64,000 nt of DNA from Cupriavidus sp. U2 (GTDB lineage: Bacteria > Pseudomonadota > Gammaproteobacteria > Burkholderiales > Burkholderiaceae): positions 310,001 to 374,000 of the forward strand of contig NZ_RCOG02000006.1 of assembly GCF_009663685.2 (NCBI RefSeq), in the 5' to 3' direction. Below are positions 4,326 through 55,058 of this stretch, piece by piece. A program made the translations under genes and the position numbers. The notes below the pieces were generated by a model. The model was not told the origin of the DNA and did no database searches. It saw nothing but the letters and a program-made list of their open reading frames with translations. Every line of letters starts with the position of its first letter. Within the stretch, counting starts at the first letter, position 1.

Positions 4326-4865
4326 ATGTTTGCCGAAGCCGTAGCGATAGTCCAAGCGCAGGAGGTTCGCAGCGTTTCGCGAAACAGCCGCGCCGCCAAT
4401 GTGGCTGGCGATCTTTTGAAGGCAATGCGGGAATTGTCCGTATTGCCGCTGACAACGCTGACGCCTGCGGAAGTTATCGAAAGCCACTTCGCCGGCATGT
4501 CGATGGATGATCTGGTGCGCGAGTTGGCGGCGGGGCGGCTCTGTGGAGGGCGCGGCCGGGAGGCAAGCGACCTGGAATTTCCTGCATGGCAGTTCGTCGA
4601 GCCGGCTCGGCAACTGTTGCCGCCCGTCATGCGGGCGGTACACGAGGCGGGCGGCGTAGATCCGCGCTACTTCTGGACTATCCGGTACGAGGGACTCTTC
4701 GACTTGACGCCGGCGGAACTCCTTTGCGGAAAGCTCTTTGTGACCCGCCGCTCCGTCTCAATGGAACAGGCCGACTATCTCGCCAGGTCTGATAAAGAAC
4801 GTCAACGGATCGTGGTGGCACATCATGAGGCACTGCTGGCGGAGCGGGACGGGCCTCACGCATGA
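4326..4865 (+). CDS. Putative antitoxin of a RES-type toxin-antitoxin pair
   Basis: A 179-residue protein starting at an ATG behind a perfect AGGAGGT. The central-to-C-terminal part (EFPAWQFVEPARQLLPPVMRAVHE... then LTPAELLCG) resembles the Xre/MbcA/ParS toxin-binding domain (DUF2384-like) that partners RES toxins, notably the FPAWQF and TPAELL motifs. I do not see a clear Xre helix-turn-helix at the N-terminus, so DNA binding is uncertain. Its stop overlaps the toxin start by 4 bp (ATGA at 4862-4865), so the pair is translationally coupled. An upstream palindrome suggests autoregulation. The role is inferred mainly from the neighbour plus the partial domain match. Confidence 0.6.
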   Translation: MFAEAVAIVQAQEVRSVSRNSRAANVAGDLLKAMRELSVLPLTTLTPAEVIESHFAGMSMDDLVRELAAGRLCGGRGREASDLEFPAWQFVEPARQLLPPVMRAVHEAGGVDPRYFWTIRYEGLFDLTPAELLCGKLFVTRRSVSMEQADYLARSDKERQRIVVAHHEALLAERDGPHA

Positions 4866-50551: not shown

Positions 50552-50708
50552 GGTCTGGGGGCGGCGGGACGGAAGTCGGGACAGGCCCCGATGATCGCAC
50601 ACCGGGCCGGCGATGTGCATGGCGCACGCGGCGGGACAGCGTCCGCCGGCCAATCATGTCGCCCGGTTACACCAGGCCGGCGTGACATATCCCGACATGA
50701 ATGCCAGG

Positions 50709-50737
50709 GCGACAGCCAGCGCTCCGCCTCCTAGAGT
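50709..50737 (+). promoter_or_regulatory. Candidate promoter of the repeat-protein gene
   Basis: GCGACA (50709-50714) and TAGAGT (50732-50737) are 17 bp apart, about 50 bp before the ATG. The -10 lies in CCTAGAGTT, which also occurs at the madLM promoter. The -35 is a weak match. Confidence 0.35.
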
Positions 50738-50787: not shown

Positions 50788-51720
50788 ATGGCCAACCGCC
50801 TCCTGATTGCCGCAGCCGGATCGCTGATGCTGCTTGCCAATGCTTCGGCCTTCGCCTGGAGCGGCGGTCACTTCAATGCCTATACGCCGCGCGGCGAGTT
50901 CAGCGGCGGCCATGCGATGTCCTGCGGCGGTGGCAGTTGCTCGCATGCCGGCGGTGCTGTGGGCCCCTGGGGGCGGACGGCCACCAACACCGGCACGGTG
51001 ACGCGCAACGCACCGGGCCAGTTCTCGAATGCCGGTACGGCGGTCGGGCCGAACGGTCGTTCGGTGCAGCACGACGGCAGCACCAGCTGCGCGGGCGGCA
51101 CCTGTGACCATACGGGCGACATGACCGGTTCGAACGGCCGCACAGCCAGGACCAGCGGCAGCGTCACGCGCGACGGCCCCGGGCAGTACAGCTCGTCGGG
51201 CACCGTGACCGGCGGCAATGGCAACAGCTGGAACCATTCGGCCGGGACGAATTGCGCCGGCAACACCTGCGATCGGTCCGGCACCGTCAGCAACAGCGAT
51301 GGCGGTAGCGTCACCCATTCCGGCAGCGCCACCCGCGTGGCGCCTGGCGTGGTGACGACCGGCGGCGGCAGCACCGTCTACCACGGGGCGACGGTCAGCA
51401 CCGGCGGCACGGTGGTAGTGGGTGCGGCGCCGATCTATGTGCCGCCCCCTGCGCCGGTGGTCGTGGCGCCGGTGCCGGTGCCGGTGATAGTGCCGCCGCC
51501 CGCACCCATGGCAGTCGTGGCTCCGGCCGCTCCCGTCCTGCCGCCGCCTCCGCCGCCCGTGGTGGTGCCTGCGCCGGTGGTCGTCACACCGCCCCCGCCG
51601 GTGCGCGTGGCGCCCGTCGTGGTGGCCCCGCCGCCGGTCTATGTGGCGCCGGCCCGGGTGGCCGTGCTGGTGCCGGGCCACTGGGTGGGCCGCGTCTGGG
51701 TGCCGGCGCATTACGCCTGA
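50788..51720 (+). CDS. Secreted protein with 55-residue cysteine repeats and Pro/Val-rich tail
   Basis: A 310-residue protein of unknown function. A signal peptide ends near residue 23 (ANASAFA). Cysteine pairs C-x4-C lie at 46/51, 101/106 and 156/161, an exact 55-residue period. Each unit carries a C-x(4)-C head, then G-R-T, TGTVTR or SGSVTR, and PGQF/PGQY; the third is cut short. Residues from about 210 are a Pro/Val-rich stretch (VPPPAPVVVAPVPVP and similar). The C-terminus VPGHWVGRVWVPAHYA has a paired VPxHx ending. It is likely surface or periplasmic, and may span or bind the cell wall. It probably starts the unit that includes the EF-hand gene. Confidence 0.75.
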   Translation: MANRLLIAAAGSLMLLANASAFAWSGGHFNAYTPRGEFSGGHAMSCGGGSCSHAGGAVGPWGRTATNTGTVTRNAPGQFSNAGTAVGPNGRSVQHDGSTSCAGGTCDHTGDMTGSNGRTARTSGSVTRDGPGQYSSSGTVTGGNGNSWNHSAGTNCAGNTCDRSGTVSNSDGGSVTHSGSATRVAPGVVTTGGGSTVYHGATVSTGGTVVVGAAPIYVPPPAPVVVAPVPVPVIVPPPAPMAVVAPAAPVLPPPPPPVVVPAPVVVTPPPPVRVAPVVVAPPPVYVAPARVAVLVPGHWVGRVWVPAHYA

Positions 51721-51802: not shown

Positions 51803-52102
51803 ATGAAGAAGATGATCACGGTAATGATCTTGTGTATTGTTTCTGCAGGAGCCGGTGCGCAAGGCCTGGCGGGCAGCGGCGGTGAAAACCGCATGGCACG
51901 AACCGAGCAGGTGCTGTCCGAACTGCAGACCCGCTTTGCCAACGCCAACACCACGCGGGACGGCAAGCTGACGCGCGCACAGGCGCAGGCGGGGATGCCG
52001 ATGGTGGCGCGGCACTTCGACGAGATGGACACGCACCATGCGGGTTATCTGACGCTGCCGCAGATCGAGGCGTTCATGGCCCAGCGCATGCGGTCGCGTT
52101 GA
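51803..52102 (+). CDS. Small secreted EF-hand domain protein
   Basis: A 99-residue protein with a signal peptide (MKKMITVMILCIVSAGAGA). Its EF-hand-like region is ANTTRDGKLTRAQAQAG, where D and G sit at calcium-loop positions. A second, weaker hand, DTHHAGYLTLPQIEAFM, follows. Such small EF-hand proteins are common next to two-component genes in Cupriavidus and Ralstonia. A calcium-sensing or periplasmic role is possible but untested. The response regulator gene follows by 63 bp on the same strand. Confidence 0.75.
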   Translation: MKKMITVMILCIVSAGAGAQGLAGSGGENRMARTEQVLSELQTRFANANTTRDGKLTRAQAQAGMPMVARHFDEMDTHHAGYLTLPQIEAFMAQRMRSR

Positions 52103-52165: not shown

Positions 52166-52879
52166 ATGGACCAGGGACACCGCATCATCGTGCTCGACGA
52201 CGAGGCCGAGCTGCGCAACATGCTGCAGCGTTTTCTGACCGGCCATGGCTTTCAGGTGCGGGCCGTGGCCGATGGCAAGCAACTCAACCGCTACCTGCAG
52301 CGCGAGCCCTACGACCTGCTGGTGCTGGACCTGATGATGGAACCCGAGGACGGGCTTTCGATCTGCCGCCGGCTACGGGCCGAAGGCCAGACGCTGCCCA
52401 TCCTGATGCTGACGGCCAAGGGCGACCCGGCCGACCGCGTGGTCGGCCTGGATACCGGCGCCGACGACTACCTGGCCAAGCCGTTTCTGCCCGATGAACT
52501 GGTGGCGCGTATCCGCGCGCTGCTGCGGCGCCAGAAGATCGCCGCGGGCGACCCGACGGTGACCCGCCAGACCCTGAGCTTCGGGGAATTCCGCTTCGAT
52601 GTCGGCAAGCAGACGCTGACGCGCGGCGGGGCGCCCGTGGAAGTTCACTCGGCCCAGATGCTGTTGCTGCACGCGCTGGGGTCCTCGCCGAACCGCGCGG
52701 TCAGCCGCGAGAACCTGCTGGCGCGCGCCCGGGGCCGCGACCACGACGCGCTGGACCGCAGCATCGACGTGCAGATCCTGCGGCTGCGCCAGATCGTCGA
52801 GGAAGATCCGTCCCGGCCACGCTTCATCAAGACCGTCTGGGGCGTCGGCTACATGCTGGTGGCGGGCGTGGACGCATGA
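52166..52879 (+). CDS. OmpR-family response regulator
   Basis: A 237-residue response regulator. Receiver domain: D11/D12, the phospho-acceptor D55 in LVLDLMM, and K105 in LAKPF. C-terminal winged helix of OmpR/PhoB type: SAQMLLLHALGSSPNRAVSRENLLARARGRD and ending IKTVWGVGYMLV. Its stop overlaps the kinase start by 4 bp, so it forms a two-component pair with the next gene. Likely targets are the neighbouring envelope genes, but this is inference. Confidence 0.92.
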   Translation: MDQGHRIIVLDDEAELRNMLQRFLTGHGFQVRAVADGKQLNRYLQREPYDLLVLDLMMEPEDGLSICRRLRAEGQTLPILMLTAKGDPADRVVGLDTGADDYLAKPFLPDELVARIRALLRRQKIAAGDPTVTRQTLSFGEFRFDVGKQTLTRGGAPVEVHSAQMLLLHALGSSPNRAVSRENLLARARGRDHDALDRSIDVQILRLRQIVEEDPSRPRFIKTVWGVGYMLVAGVDA

Positions 52880-54186
52880 TGCGTCGCATGCTGCCGCGAT
52901 CGCTGCTGGCGCGCAACATCGTCCTGCTGGTGATCCTGGTCTTCCTGACGCAGGCCTGTTCGCTGTTCGTGCTGCTGCACTACGTGCAGCGTCCGCGCGT
53001 GGAGCGGGCCGCCGCCGTGTTTTCGCAATACGTCATGCTGATGGACCGCGCGCTCGGCACCATGCCCGCCGGCGAGGCCCACGCGGCCGTGGCGCGCATG
53101 GGCGGCCAGGCCGATCCGCCGCCCGACGATCCACCCGGCGCCGACACGGCCCACCCGTTCCGCACGTGGCAGCGCGACGTGTTCATGCGCGCGTTGCGGC
53201 GCGACCTGGCGCGTGACACCGATGTGCGCTGGCAGGGCGGCGGCGATGACGAAAAGCTGTGGATCCAGGTGCATGCCGCCGGATCGCCCACGTGGATTGC
53301 GCTGCCGATGACGGCCGACGCACAGGCCAGCGGCATCACGGCCGCCATTGCGCTGTCGGCGGCGCTCGCGCTGCTGGCGGCGTTGACCGGCTACCTGCTG
53401 CAGCGCCATCTCAACCGGCCGCTGCAGGACCTGGCGCAGGCAGCCAACCGCATCCATGCGGGCGAGATACCCGAGGCCTTGCCGACCAACGGCCCCACCG
53501 AAATCGCCGAGGTCAGCCGTGCCTTCAACGACATGACCGAGGCATTGCGCCAGGCCGAGAAGACGCGCGCGCTGATGCTGGCGGGCGTCTCGCACGACAT
53601 TCGCACGCCGCTGACCAAGCTGCGCCTGGCCATGGCGATGACGCTGCCGCGCGGCACGGACGACGCATTCGTGGCGTCGGTGGAAGGGTATCTCGATCAC
53701 ATCGACATGATCCTGCAGCAGTTCATGGACTACGCCGGCAGCGGCGAGAAAGAGACGCCGCAGCCAGGTGATCTCAATGCGCTGGTGCGCCAGCTGGCGG
53801 CCGATTTCGCAGGGCTGGGGCACGAATTCGAGCTCGACCTGGGGCCGCTACCCCCGGTGGTGTATCGGCCCACGAGCATGCTGCGCATGCTGATGAACCT
53901 GATGCAGAACGCGATCAAGTACGGCAAGACGGGCCTTTTGGTGCGCACCTGGCAGGACGGCCGGCAGGCCCATGTGGCGATCTGCGACCGCGGCACGGGC
54001 CTGGGCGCGGCGGATCTGGAGCTGTTGCGCGCACCGTTCAGCCGGGGCAGCAATACCCATGGCGAAGGCGGCACGGGCCTGGGGCTGGCCATCGTCGATC
54101 GCATCGCGCGGCTGCACGGCGGCGCGCTGTCATTCCGCGAGCGCGAAGGCGGTGGGCTGGAGGTTGTGGTGTCGCTGCCCGCGTGA
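52876..54186 (+). CDS. EnvZ-like sensor histidine kinase
   Basis: A 436-residue membrane kinase. Two helices (SLLARNIVLLVILVFLTQACSLFVLL, and ITAAIALSAALALLAALTGYLL) flank a periplasmic sensor of about 130 residues. HAMP follows (NRPLQDLAQAANRIHAGEIPEAL), then the HisKA dimerisation domain with H240 in AGVSHDIRTPLTKLR, and the ATPase domain with NAIKYGK, DRGTGLGA and GTGLGLAI. The periplasmic part is not obviously like EnvZ, so the signal is unknown. It is last in the two-gene unit. Confidence 0.92.
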   Translation: MMRRMLPRSLLARNIVLLVILVFLTQACSLFVLLHYVQRPRVERAAAVFSQYVMLMDRALGTMPAGEAHAAVARMGGQADPPPDDPPGADTAHPFRTWQRDVFMRALRRDLARDTDVRWQGGGDDEKLWIQVHAAGSPTWIALPMTADAQASGITAAIALSAALALLAALTGYLLQRHLNRPLQDLAQAANRIHAGEIPEALPTNGPTEIAEVSRAFNDMTEALRQAEKTRALMLAGVSHDIRTPLTKLRLAMAMTLPRGTDDAFVASVEGYLDHIDMILQQFMDYAGSGEKETPQPGDLNALVRQLAADFAGLGHEFELDLGPLPPVVYRPTSMLRMLMNLMQNAIKYGKTGLLVRTWQDGRQAHVAICDRGTGLGAADLELLRAPFSRGSNTHGEGGTGLGLAIVDRIARLHGGALSFREREGGGLEVVVSLPA

Positions 54187-54296: not shown

Positions 54297-55058
54297 ATGA
54301 CGACCACTTTCAAGACCCTCTCGCGCACCGCCAGGCAACTGACCATCGCCGCCGTGGCTGCGGCATCGATGATGATGGCTGGCGGCGCGTCGGCCACGAC
54401 GATGATCTCGGAAGCGTCGGTGCCGGCGTCGCTGTCGCACGTGCAGGCCGACGTGGTCTATGTGCGTGGCTTCGACGTGAGTGCCAGCCAGGTCAAGGTC
54501 GACAACACGATGATGCACCGGATCAAGGCGATGGCTTCTGGCGACGCCGGCGGCGGTGCCCAGGACCAGGCCGCGCTGGCCGCGCGCAATGCCACGGCCG
54601 ACGAGATCGTCCGCCAGCTTCAGGCCAAGGGGCTGCATGCCGTGCGTCTCGACGGCCCGGTGCCAGCCGATGCCAACGCCCTGATCGTGGAAGGCCGCTT
54701 CGACAGGATCGACGAAGGCAATCAGCGCCGTCGCACAATGATCGGTCTGGGCGCGGGCAAGAGCGATGTGTCGGCATCGGTCCAGGTGCTGTACCAGCCG
54801 GCACATGCCCAGCCGATTCCGCTGGCGCTGTTCGATACCAGCGCCGACAGCGGCCATATGCCCGGCGTGGCCGAGATGGCCGGCGTGGGCGCGGCGGCCA
54901 GCCACGTGGCCACGTCGGCGGCGGCCAGCGCCGGCTTGCACGGGGCGACCGAAGCCCGGCGCGACAGCGTTGCCGGCGAAGCGCAGCGCGTGGGCGATGC
55001 CGTGGTCAAGCAGGTGATGGCCGTGCTGGACCAGCCGGGCGGGGCCGCACGTATCTGA
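54297..55058 (+). CDS. DUF4410-type periplasmic protein
   Basis: A 253-residue protein with a signal peptide (ending ASAT) and a DUF4410-like body: VYVRGFDVSASQVKVD, then ADEIVRQLQAKGLHAVRL and EGRFDRIDEGNQRRRTMIGLGAGKSDVSASVQVLY. The family is described as periplasmic or lipoprotein, with unknown function. The C-terminal third is Ala-rich. A terminator lies 31 bp downstream. It is 110 bp after the kinase gene, so it may or may not be in that unit. Confidence 0.7.
   Translation: MTTTFKTLSRTARQLTIAAVAAASMMMAGGASATTMISEASVPASLSHVQADVVYVRGFDVSASQVKVDNTMMHRIKAMASGDAGGGAQDQAALAARNATADEIVRQLQAKGLHAVRLDGPVPADANALIVEGRFDRIDEGNQRRRTMIGLGAGKSDVSASVQVLYQPAHAQPIPLALFDTSADSGHMPGVAEMAGVGAAASHVATSAAASAGLHGATEARRDSVAGEAQRVGDAVVKQVMAVLDQPGGAARI

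Follow-up and report, generated by a model that had tools for sequence, protein, structure and literature searches.

What is the task of an anonymous exported protein that carries three evenly spaced cysteine pairs and a proline-rich tail? The question is raised by gene E of Cupriavidus sp. U2, found in a 64,000-nucleotide stretch of DNA (contig NZ_RCOG02000006.1, positions 310,001 to 374,000 of the forward strand; hereafter the window, meaning the whole stretch analysed) from a genome of 6.45 Mb. Its open reading frame (ORF) encodes, in order, an export-type start, three C-x4-C pairs, a linker rich in Thr and Gly, a Pro/Val tail and the end VPGHWVGRVWVPAHYA, and the closest named records belong to Cupriavidus pauculus and a Ralstonia sp., with 93% identity over the best segment. 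An earlier note on this DNA had stated that no function is known, which still holds for the molecular activity of the protein, while the regulatory context now offers a concrete lead: E probably encodes an exported protein that serves as the dedicated output of the OmpR/EnvZ-type two-component system whose genes lie just downstream. This reading is carried by the co-occurrence of E with the kinase of that system, by a DNA box shared between them, by a similar neighbourhood in two bacterial classes and by the conservation of the cysteines.

In the window, E is followed by F (EF-hand-like), G (OmpR-like), H (EnvZ-like kinase) and I (DUF4410), and the same gene order is present in Cupriavidus metallidurans CH34. 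As the scores of G and H stay below the curated NCBIfam cut-offs (see the table), the two are considered OmpR/EnvZ-like and not members of these families. The regulator adjoins E in 22 of the 71 named loci that carry E; in the others, among them Paraburkholderia xenovorans LB400 (L037), E is located elsewhere. The kinase was searched for (E value of at most 1e-60) first in 42 chosen genomes and then in the same 299 Burkholderiaceae genomes sampled for the E family, which is present in 98 of them and in 7 of 25 genera. Both genes occur in 96 genomes, the kinase alone in 14, E alone in 2 and neither in 187, which corresponds to a phi coefficient of 0.89, and to 0.90 within the 40 Cupriavidus genomes. 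The two genes lie within 4 kb of each other in 53 of the 96 genomes, farther apart on the same contig in 10 (at 4.2 kb in one case) and on different contigs in 33. As 43 of the 96 pairs are not within 4 kb, the association seems not to need physical linkage.

Co-occurrence of this kind might also be expected if E were a mere passenger that reflects shared phylogeny. Indeed, the unrelated control gene mdcA, present in 176 genomes, also correlates, with a phi of 0.53 overall and 0.55 in Cupriavidus. Because the genomes are related, the comparison with this control outweighs any p-value, and the passenger explanation is made very unlikely by the phi of 0.89, by an association that holds within one genus and when the genes are not adjacent, and by the shared box and the similar neighbourhood in another class that are described below.

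The dependence between E and the kinase is one-way. Among the 299 genomes, every undamaged E found is accompanied by the kinase, whereas 14 genomes (of which 12, L192-L203, were inspected) have kept the kinase and not E, and this favours E as an output over an essential part of the sensor. Both genomes with E alone carry a damaged copy: that of G605 has a stop ahead of the first Cys pair and loses its similarity inside repeat 1, and that of G638 has an out-of-frame tail. Since damaged copies also occur together with the kinase, the damage in these two genomes is not by itself proof. The main rival to the output reading is an accessory role, whereby E would mainly act as a feedback regulator that, in the manner of CpxP, tunes the EnvZ-like kinase by binding to its sensor domain. 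The adjacency, the co-occurrence and the shared control site recall the cpxP gene, which is placed beside cpxRA. Binding of CpxP to CpxA is described in PMC4160245. Such a role for E is possible, though on the whole unlikely, as the dependence is one-way, E and the kinase are not adjacent in 43 of the 96 genomes, and the EF-hand-like protein is a closer neighbour of the regulator, a relative of F adjoining it in 15 of 20 loci examined.

The output reading is further supported by a shared tandem control site. GACAT-N5-GACAT occurs as a single exact copy in the window, upstream of E, and the 17-base form TGACATN5GACATG as a single exact copy in the whole genome, at the same place. With one mismatch, the 17-base form is found at 28 further places, which makes a total of 29, versus 4 for a reversed control pattern, and other targets of the box may exist. 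At G000:C28:331257-331288, three near-matches of the box overlap or adjoin in a partly palindromic arrangement, which may be another target or the site of another regulator. Upstream of the F-G-H operon, an exact GACAT-N5-GACAT is present in 11 of 19 loci (20 were fetched and L192 was left out); among the eight loci without an exact copy, some have imperfect boxes and some have doubtful start codons, and the box of L204 sits just inside the ORF start taken. A matrix was built from the 11 exact boxes, two of which (L209, L210) come from genomes with E within about 3 kb of the operon. Scored with this matrix, the region upstream of E lies above the 99th percentile of shuffles in 22 of the 23 linked loci and in 44 of the 49 whose flanks, as far as covered, contain no regulator. 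In 44 of these 49, the highest-scoring site anywhere in the locus (mostly about 10.5 kb) is at most 400 nucleotides upstream of the mature E start, as against about 4% expected by chance, and a -10-like CTATAGT is found in 38 of 46 de-duplicated regions upstream of E. Being a direct repeat with a 10-bp period, GACAT-N5-GACAT has the form of an OmpR-type tandem site, as have the GTTACA-type repeats of the other class; in PMC9861516, GTTACAACTTGTTACATAAG is listed among predicted OmpR boxes, with similar tandem sequences in Acidithiobacillus. AgrR of Cupriavidus metallidurans was considered as the regulator and set aside as presumably a different one, because its box is an inverted ATTACA repeat and its genes are numbered beside efflux genes. 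As a possible model, FeuN/FeuQ was weighed too.

The same kind of neighbourhood is found in a second class of the phylum, that of genome G784, which is probably Alphaproteobacteria. A minimal-unit profile matched in 7 of 240 genomes of this class, not all of the matches being real. In 6 of the 9 loci examined, a unit gene with one C-x4-C lies in divergent orientation to the genes for an OmpR-like regulator and its accompanying kinase; of the remaining three, one has no regulator or kinase in 10 kb, one is at a contig end and one is a spurious match. The match in L161, which falls in an Arg-rich frame, was rejected as spurious. Between the divergent genes, a tandem GTTACA-type repeat with a 10-bp period is present in 6 of 6 loci, with the variant halves GTAACA in L160 and GTTACG in L144, and GTTACAT differs by one base from GTGACAT of the window box. 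Next to its unit gene and regulator-kinase pair, L144 also encodes, at 4516-4839, a small exported protein that contains Cys.

Several points weigh against E as a dedicated output. The genomes are related and the co-occurrence counts are not independent events; damaged E is also found alongside the kinase (in G023, and in G528/L055, where it is apparently split in the tail); 33 of the 43 "unlinked" pairs are on different contigs, some of them in drafts, and some may truly be linked; and in four of the 96 genomes (G457, G472, G487 and G530) the identity of the kinase is just 41-44%. As for the box, sites with up to two mismatches are at chance level in the window (40 vs 34.8), 5 of the 49 loci have no good box in the 400 nucleotides scored (one of the five, L078, has a strong box at -438), and in linked loci the box upstream of E may serve the whole operon. 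In the other class, three genera account for the six positive loci, and the unit of L146 has no nearby kinase. Finally, the global fold of E is uncertain, its disulfides are predicted, the binding of the regulator to DNA and the induction of E are putative, and the export route, the location and the final protective or structural role of the protein are presumptive.

The protein itself is constant in its cysteines. The pairs reported in the earlier note (46/51, 101/106 and 156/161) are confirmed in the 310-residue ORF, and the doubt raised there, that the cysteines might not be conserved in homologues, was not borne out: Cys stands at all six places in 71 of 71 ORFs that match the repeat domain, collected without a Cys pattern from 72 named loci that derive from a genome-contig scan in which peptide words containing Cys were partly used. 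The exception among the 72 loci is L093, where the whole repeat domain is missing. An earlier set of 77 sequences had been chosen by Cys spacing, so that its count of 77/77 is circular for the first two pairs; it retained 77 of 78 unique sequences (the one dropped being the damaged copy in L018/L021), it has no sequence from L002, L019 and L093, and its repeat region holds no further Cys. Among diverged members, L112 and L113 have six Cys each with a 55/54 spacing of the pairs, and L114 has six with a 55/55 spacing; the 54 residues between the second and third pairs are seen in L113 / G530 and L112 / G487, and the L113 ORF has no usual Trp/His end. For the alignment, 69 homologues were kept after removal of duplicates, X-containing and short sequences, and in the 70 aligned sequences C-x4-C-x-H is invariant in repeats 1 and 2. 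This invariance would fit metal sites, in which case E would buffer or sense metals. However, Arg stands in place of this His in repeat 3 of 70/70 sequences and also in repeat 2 of the diverged L113, with Cys unchanged, and in exported proteins, cross-strand i,i+5 Cys pairs typically form disulfides. Since the His place becomes Arg while the Cys stay, a metal site is disfavoured, and the metal explanation is improbable.

AlphaFold predicts E as a 13-strand up-and-down beta-meander. Two runs, one on the mature protein with 70 sequences and one on the repeat domain with 26, gave identical 13 strands within a residue, with block values of the predicted local distance difference test (pLDDT) of 75-92 and 75-89 over most of the repeats and low confidence in the linker and much of the tail. 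The meander may be an open, free-standing single-layer sheet or a closed one, its overall shape being uncertain at predicted template modelling (pTM) scores of 0.47 and 0.58. In the model, each Cys pair occupies positions i,i+5 flanking a two-residue turn, which is the place where a cross-strand disulfide fits in beta-hairpins, and the pairs are conserved across these turns, as in a disulfide-stapled hairpin repeat; the C-x4-C pairs are thus predicted to be cross-strand disulfide staples. Alternate tips on the Cys-bearing edge of the sheet are modelled as Pro-Gly turns, and of the two modelled faces one is mostly Ser/Thr/Asn/Asp/Gln and the other Gly/Val/Ala/His/Cys/aromatic.

The structural neighbours listed for the models are porins, among them CymA (Z 16.8, root-mean-square deviation 2.7, 188 residues) and OmpG (Z 16.1, deviation 3.0, 188 residues), aligned over the whole domain, and this would fit an outer-membrane beta-barrel. 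On the other hand, the best Foldseek E values are 0.0039 and 0.013, the protein has no C-terminal aromatic, and ten-residue segments with 3 of 5 large hydrophobics on one face number 0 of 167 in the repeat domain, whereas nine porin frames from the same genome give 32.4 to 38.7 per 100 residues. As the composition of the strands is too polar, a membrane barrel is to all intents ruled out. MORN/G-box structures are not among the structural matches listed, which carries no evidential weight. The suggestion of the earlier note that the protein spans the envelope or lies on the surface finds no support: no anchor or lipobox is visible by eye in the protein, the strands have no lipid-facing face and the tail is mostly of low confidence in the model. 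Its claim of secretion is supported by the N-terminal export-type sequence, read by eye, and the Pro/Val-rich tail (about 100 residues; P and V number 33 and 34 among the final 112) and the VPGHW..VPAHY end are as it described them.

The repeats had been described as exact and recent. The 55-residue period is real, with 34.8% identity at shift 55 versus 23.9% in the best of 2000 shuffles, and the spacing is exact. The copies are not: in the window protein, repeats 1/2, 1/3 and 2/3 share 27, 16 and 19 of 55 residues (29-49%) and, at the DNA level, 85, 76 and 77 of 165 bases, and the pattern GR-T...TR..PGQ(F/Y), said to accompany each pair, is found in repeats 1 and 2 while repeat 3 reads GGSVTHSGSATRVAPGVV. 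Across the family, the mean identity of repeats within a protein is 52% (1/2), 38% (1/3) and 42% (2/3), and that of the equivalent repeat between species is 82, 75 and 71% (repeats 1, 2 and 3); when 231 repeats were each compared with those of other proteins, 0 had their closest counterpart at a different position. A recent duplication is rejected by this comparison, and the repeats of E are old, as judged from the sequences. In L157 (4803-5132), two C-x4-C pairs lie 27 residues apart in a gene within which the contig stops, and this spacing suggests a 27/28-residue double strand as the basic repeat unit.

The family searches placed E in no known family above threshold. No match was found in NCBIfam at an E value of at most 1, in PADLOC and PHROGs at 0.1 or in the PDB sequence search, and the sole Pfam match of the window protein is DUF3659 (PF12396) at 14.5 bits, where the gathering cut-off is 24.8. 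In the 70 family members, at an E value of at most 0.1, DUF3659 is matched by 14 and PXPV (PF12778) by 2, the MORN families are not matched, and the YXWGXW family is not listed among the Pfam matches; the YEGEW motif is not found in the family alignments. No Pfam match to the CpxP/Spy family was obtained for E, whose models are all-beta. In the literature, most subscription journals being outside the coverage, no title among the matches listed describes the E protein or the system.

Homologues at the 72 loci belong to Cupriavidus, Paraburkholderia, Caballeronia and Trinickia and to records labelled Burkholderia sp. and Ralstonia sp. In a class-wide sample of 369 genomes, the matches were limited to the genome of the window itself and a weak, partial one in G342, which yielded no ORF passing the filter. 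A phylum-wide search of 398 genomes with a 55-residue profile gave matches in 8, of which three belong to the window's family; among the others are small exported proteins that carry just one C-x4-C (L131, L133, L134). L135 (1102-1720), from the window's class, encodes an exported GPNG-type repeat protein with Cys-free repeats and a single Cys pair near its end. Damaged copies of E (out of frame, split in the tail or broken off) are seen in L018, L055, L074 and L116, some of them in genomes that have the kinase. In Cupriavidus campinensis L093 (4770-5174), a protein with an export signal, a Pro/Val tail and WVPGHWVGRVWVPAHYA but without repeats lies directly upstream of the regulator, and the same tail-only sequence is present in G473 (L192, 3294-3698). 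Since the tail-only protein replaces the repeat protein at L093/L192, the repeat block appears to be a separable module.

The features of the locus are collected in the table. As regards the neighbours, F has a weak PHROG match (E value 0.0042), and its calcium loop looks degenerate in Cupriavidus (NTTRDGKLTRAQ) and canonical in the diverged relative L210 (DVNHDGKLTRSE), which hints at a lost calcium link. In a number of loci the kinase gene is followed by one for a DUF4410 protein, which may share the regulon.

Features of the locus around gene E, in positions of the window
Feature	Position	Strand	Basis or remark
C-x4-C repeat protein gene (E), 310 aa from ATG	50788..51720	+	ORF
Predicted export signal, residues 1-23, A-x-A cleavage region	50788..50856	+	read by eye, inferred
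Repeat 1, residues 46-100, Cys 46/51	50923..51087	+	sequence, repeat analysis, model
Repeat 2, residues 101-155, Cys 101/106	51088..51252	+	sequence, repeat analysis, model
Repeat 3, residues 156-210, Cys 156/161	51253..51417	+	C-terminal part of low confidence in the model
Pro/Val/Ala-rich tail of E	51418..51672	+	mostly of low confidence, no regular structure in the model
Conserved end of E, PGHWVGRVWVPAHYA; family consensus WVPGHWVGRVWVPAHWA	51673..51717	+	alignment
Tandem box GACAT-ATCCC-GACAT upstream of E	50684..50698	+	sequence pattern; same box upstream of the kinase operon elsewhere
Presumed -10 element TAGAGT of E	50732..50737	+	inferred
Small exported EF-hand-like protein (F), degenerate loop in the window	51803..52102	+	EF-hand_6, E value 0.0031, below cut-off
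OmpR-like response regulator (G)	52166..52879	+	best NCBIfam model OmpR, 302 bits, cut-off 331
EnvZ-like histidine kinase (H)	52876..54186	+	best NCBIfam model EnvZ, 286 bits, cut-off 415
DUF4410 protein (I)	54297..55058	+	PF14366, E value 2e-30

A plausible course of events can be proposed for E as the output of this system. The EnvZ-like kinase would sense an envelope signal, and the OmpR-like regulator would then bind the tandem GACAT-N5-GACAT, about 50 bp upstream of the presumed transcription start, and switch E on. The E protein would be exported to the periplasm or beyond and oxidised there, its three C-x4-C pairs closing as cross-strand disulfides at the hairpin tips. The chain would fold into an antiparallel beta-sheet, long and hydrophilic, that carries a flexible Pro/Val arm and the conserved W-x-P-x-H-W-type end, and would most likely serve as a structural or protective protein of the envelope or matrix that is made on demand. 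The small EF-hand-like protein, which would be exported as well, is encoded downstream together with the two-component system.

If so, E no longer encodes an anonymous hypothetical protein: its product is predicted to be the output of a signalling system that can be defined by a kinase, a named DNA box and a pattern of natural absence testable in ordinary soil bacteria. As E co-occurs and shares a control site with one sensor-regulator switch, its job can be tested through that switch. If this is confirmed, the box could lead to the remaining members of the regulon and to the signal in Cupriavidus, Paraburkholderia and Caballeronia, a number of them isolated from plants or insects. Few soluble single-sheet folds are known, and E would be a new one, an exported beta-repeat with disulfide staples. 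A broader and more speculative proposal is that of an unnamed class of two-component systems, spanning at least two classes of one phylum and defined by an exported hairpin-repeat protein of one to three Cys-stapled units as its main output. That output would be a water-soluble, porin-sized up-and-down beta-sheet or barrel with its staples along one rim, an arrangement through which the oxidation state of the envelope could gate the output of an OmpR-type response.

Among the closest known systems is that of CpxP and CpxRA of E. coli, where the gene of an exported protein is likewise tied to an OmpR-family system and shares its control site. The CpxP/Spy family consists of helical LTxxQ proteins and CpxP itself has a helical fold, whereas E is predicted to be all-beta with Cys-stapled repeats and is often not adjacent to the kinase. 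With the MORN repeats and the G-box of CPAP, E would share head-to-tail beta-hairpins in one extended sheet and many turn glycines; according to PMC7725318, the MORN repeat has 23 residues with GxG and YEGEW motifs, unlike E, which has hairpin units of 27/28 residues arranged in 55-residue pairs, no YEGEW, putative Cys staples and an export signal. The predicted up-and-down strand order and curvature are those of OmpG/CymA-type porins, whose hydrophobic outer face and C-terminal aromatic are not found in E. Its Pro/Val tail and Trp/His-rich end are reminiscent of PXPV repeats and YXWGXW-type tails, although just 2 of the 70 family members match PXPV, and DUF3659 is weakly similar over one hairpin, with the window protein below its cut-off. 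That two-component systems can have exported targets is known; the E protein family, for its part, gave no match above threshold in the libraries searched.
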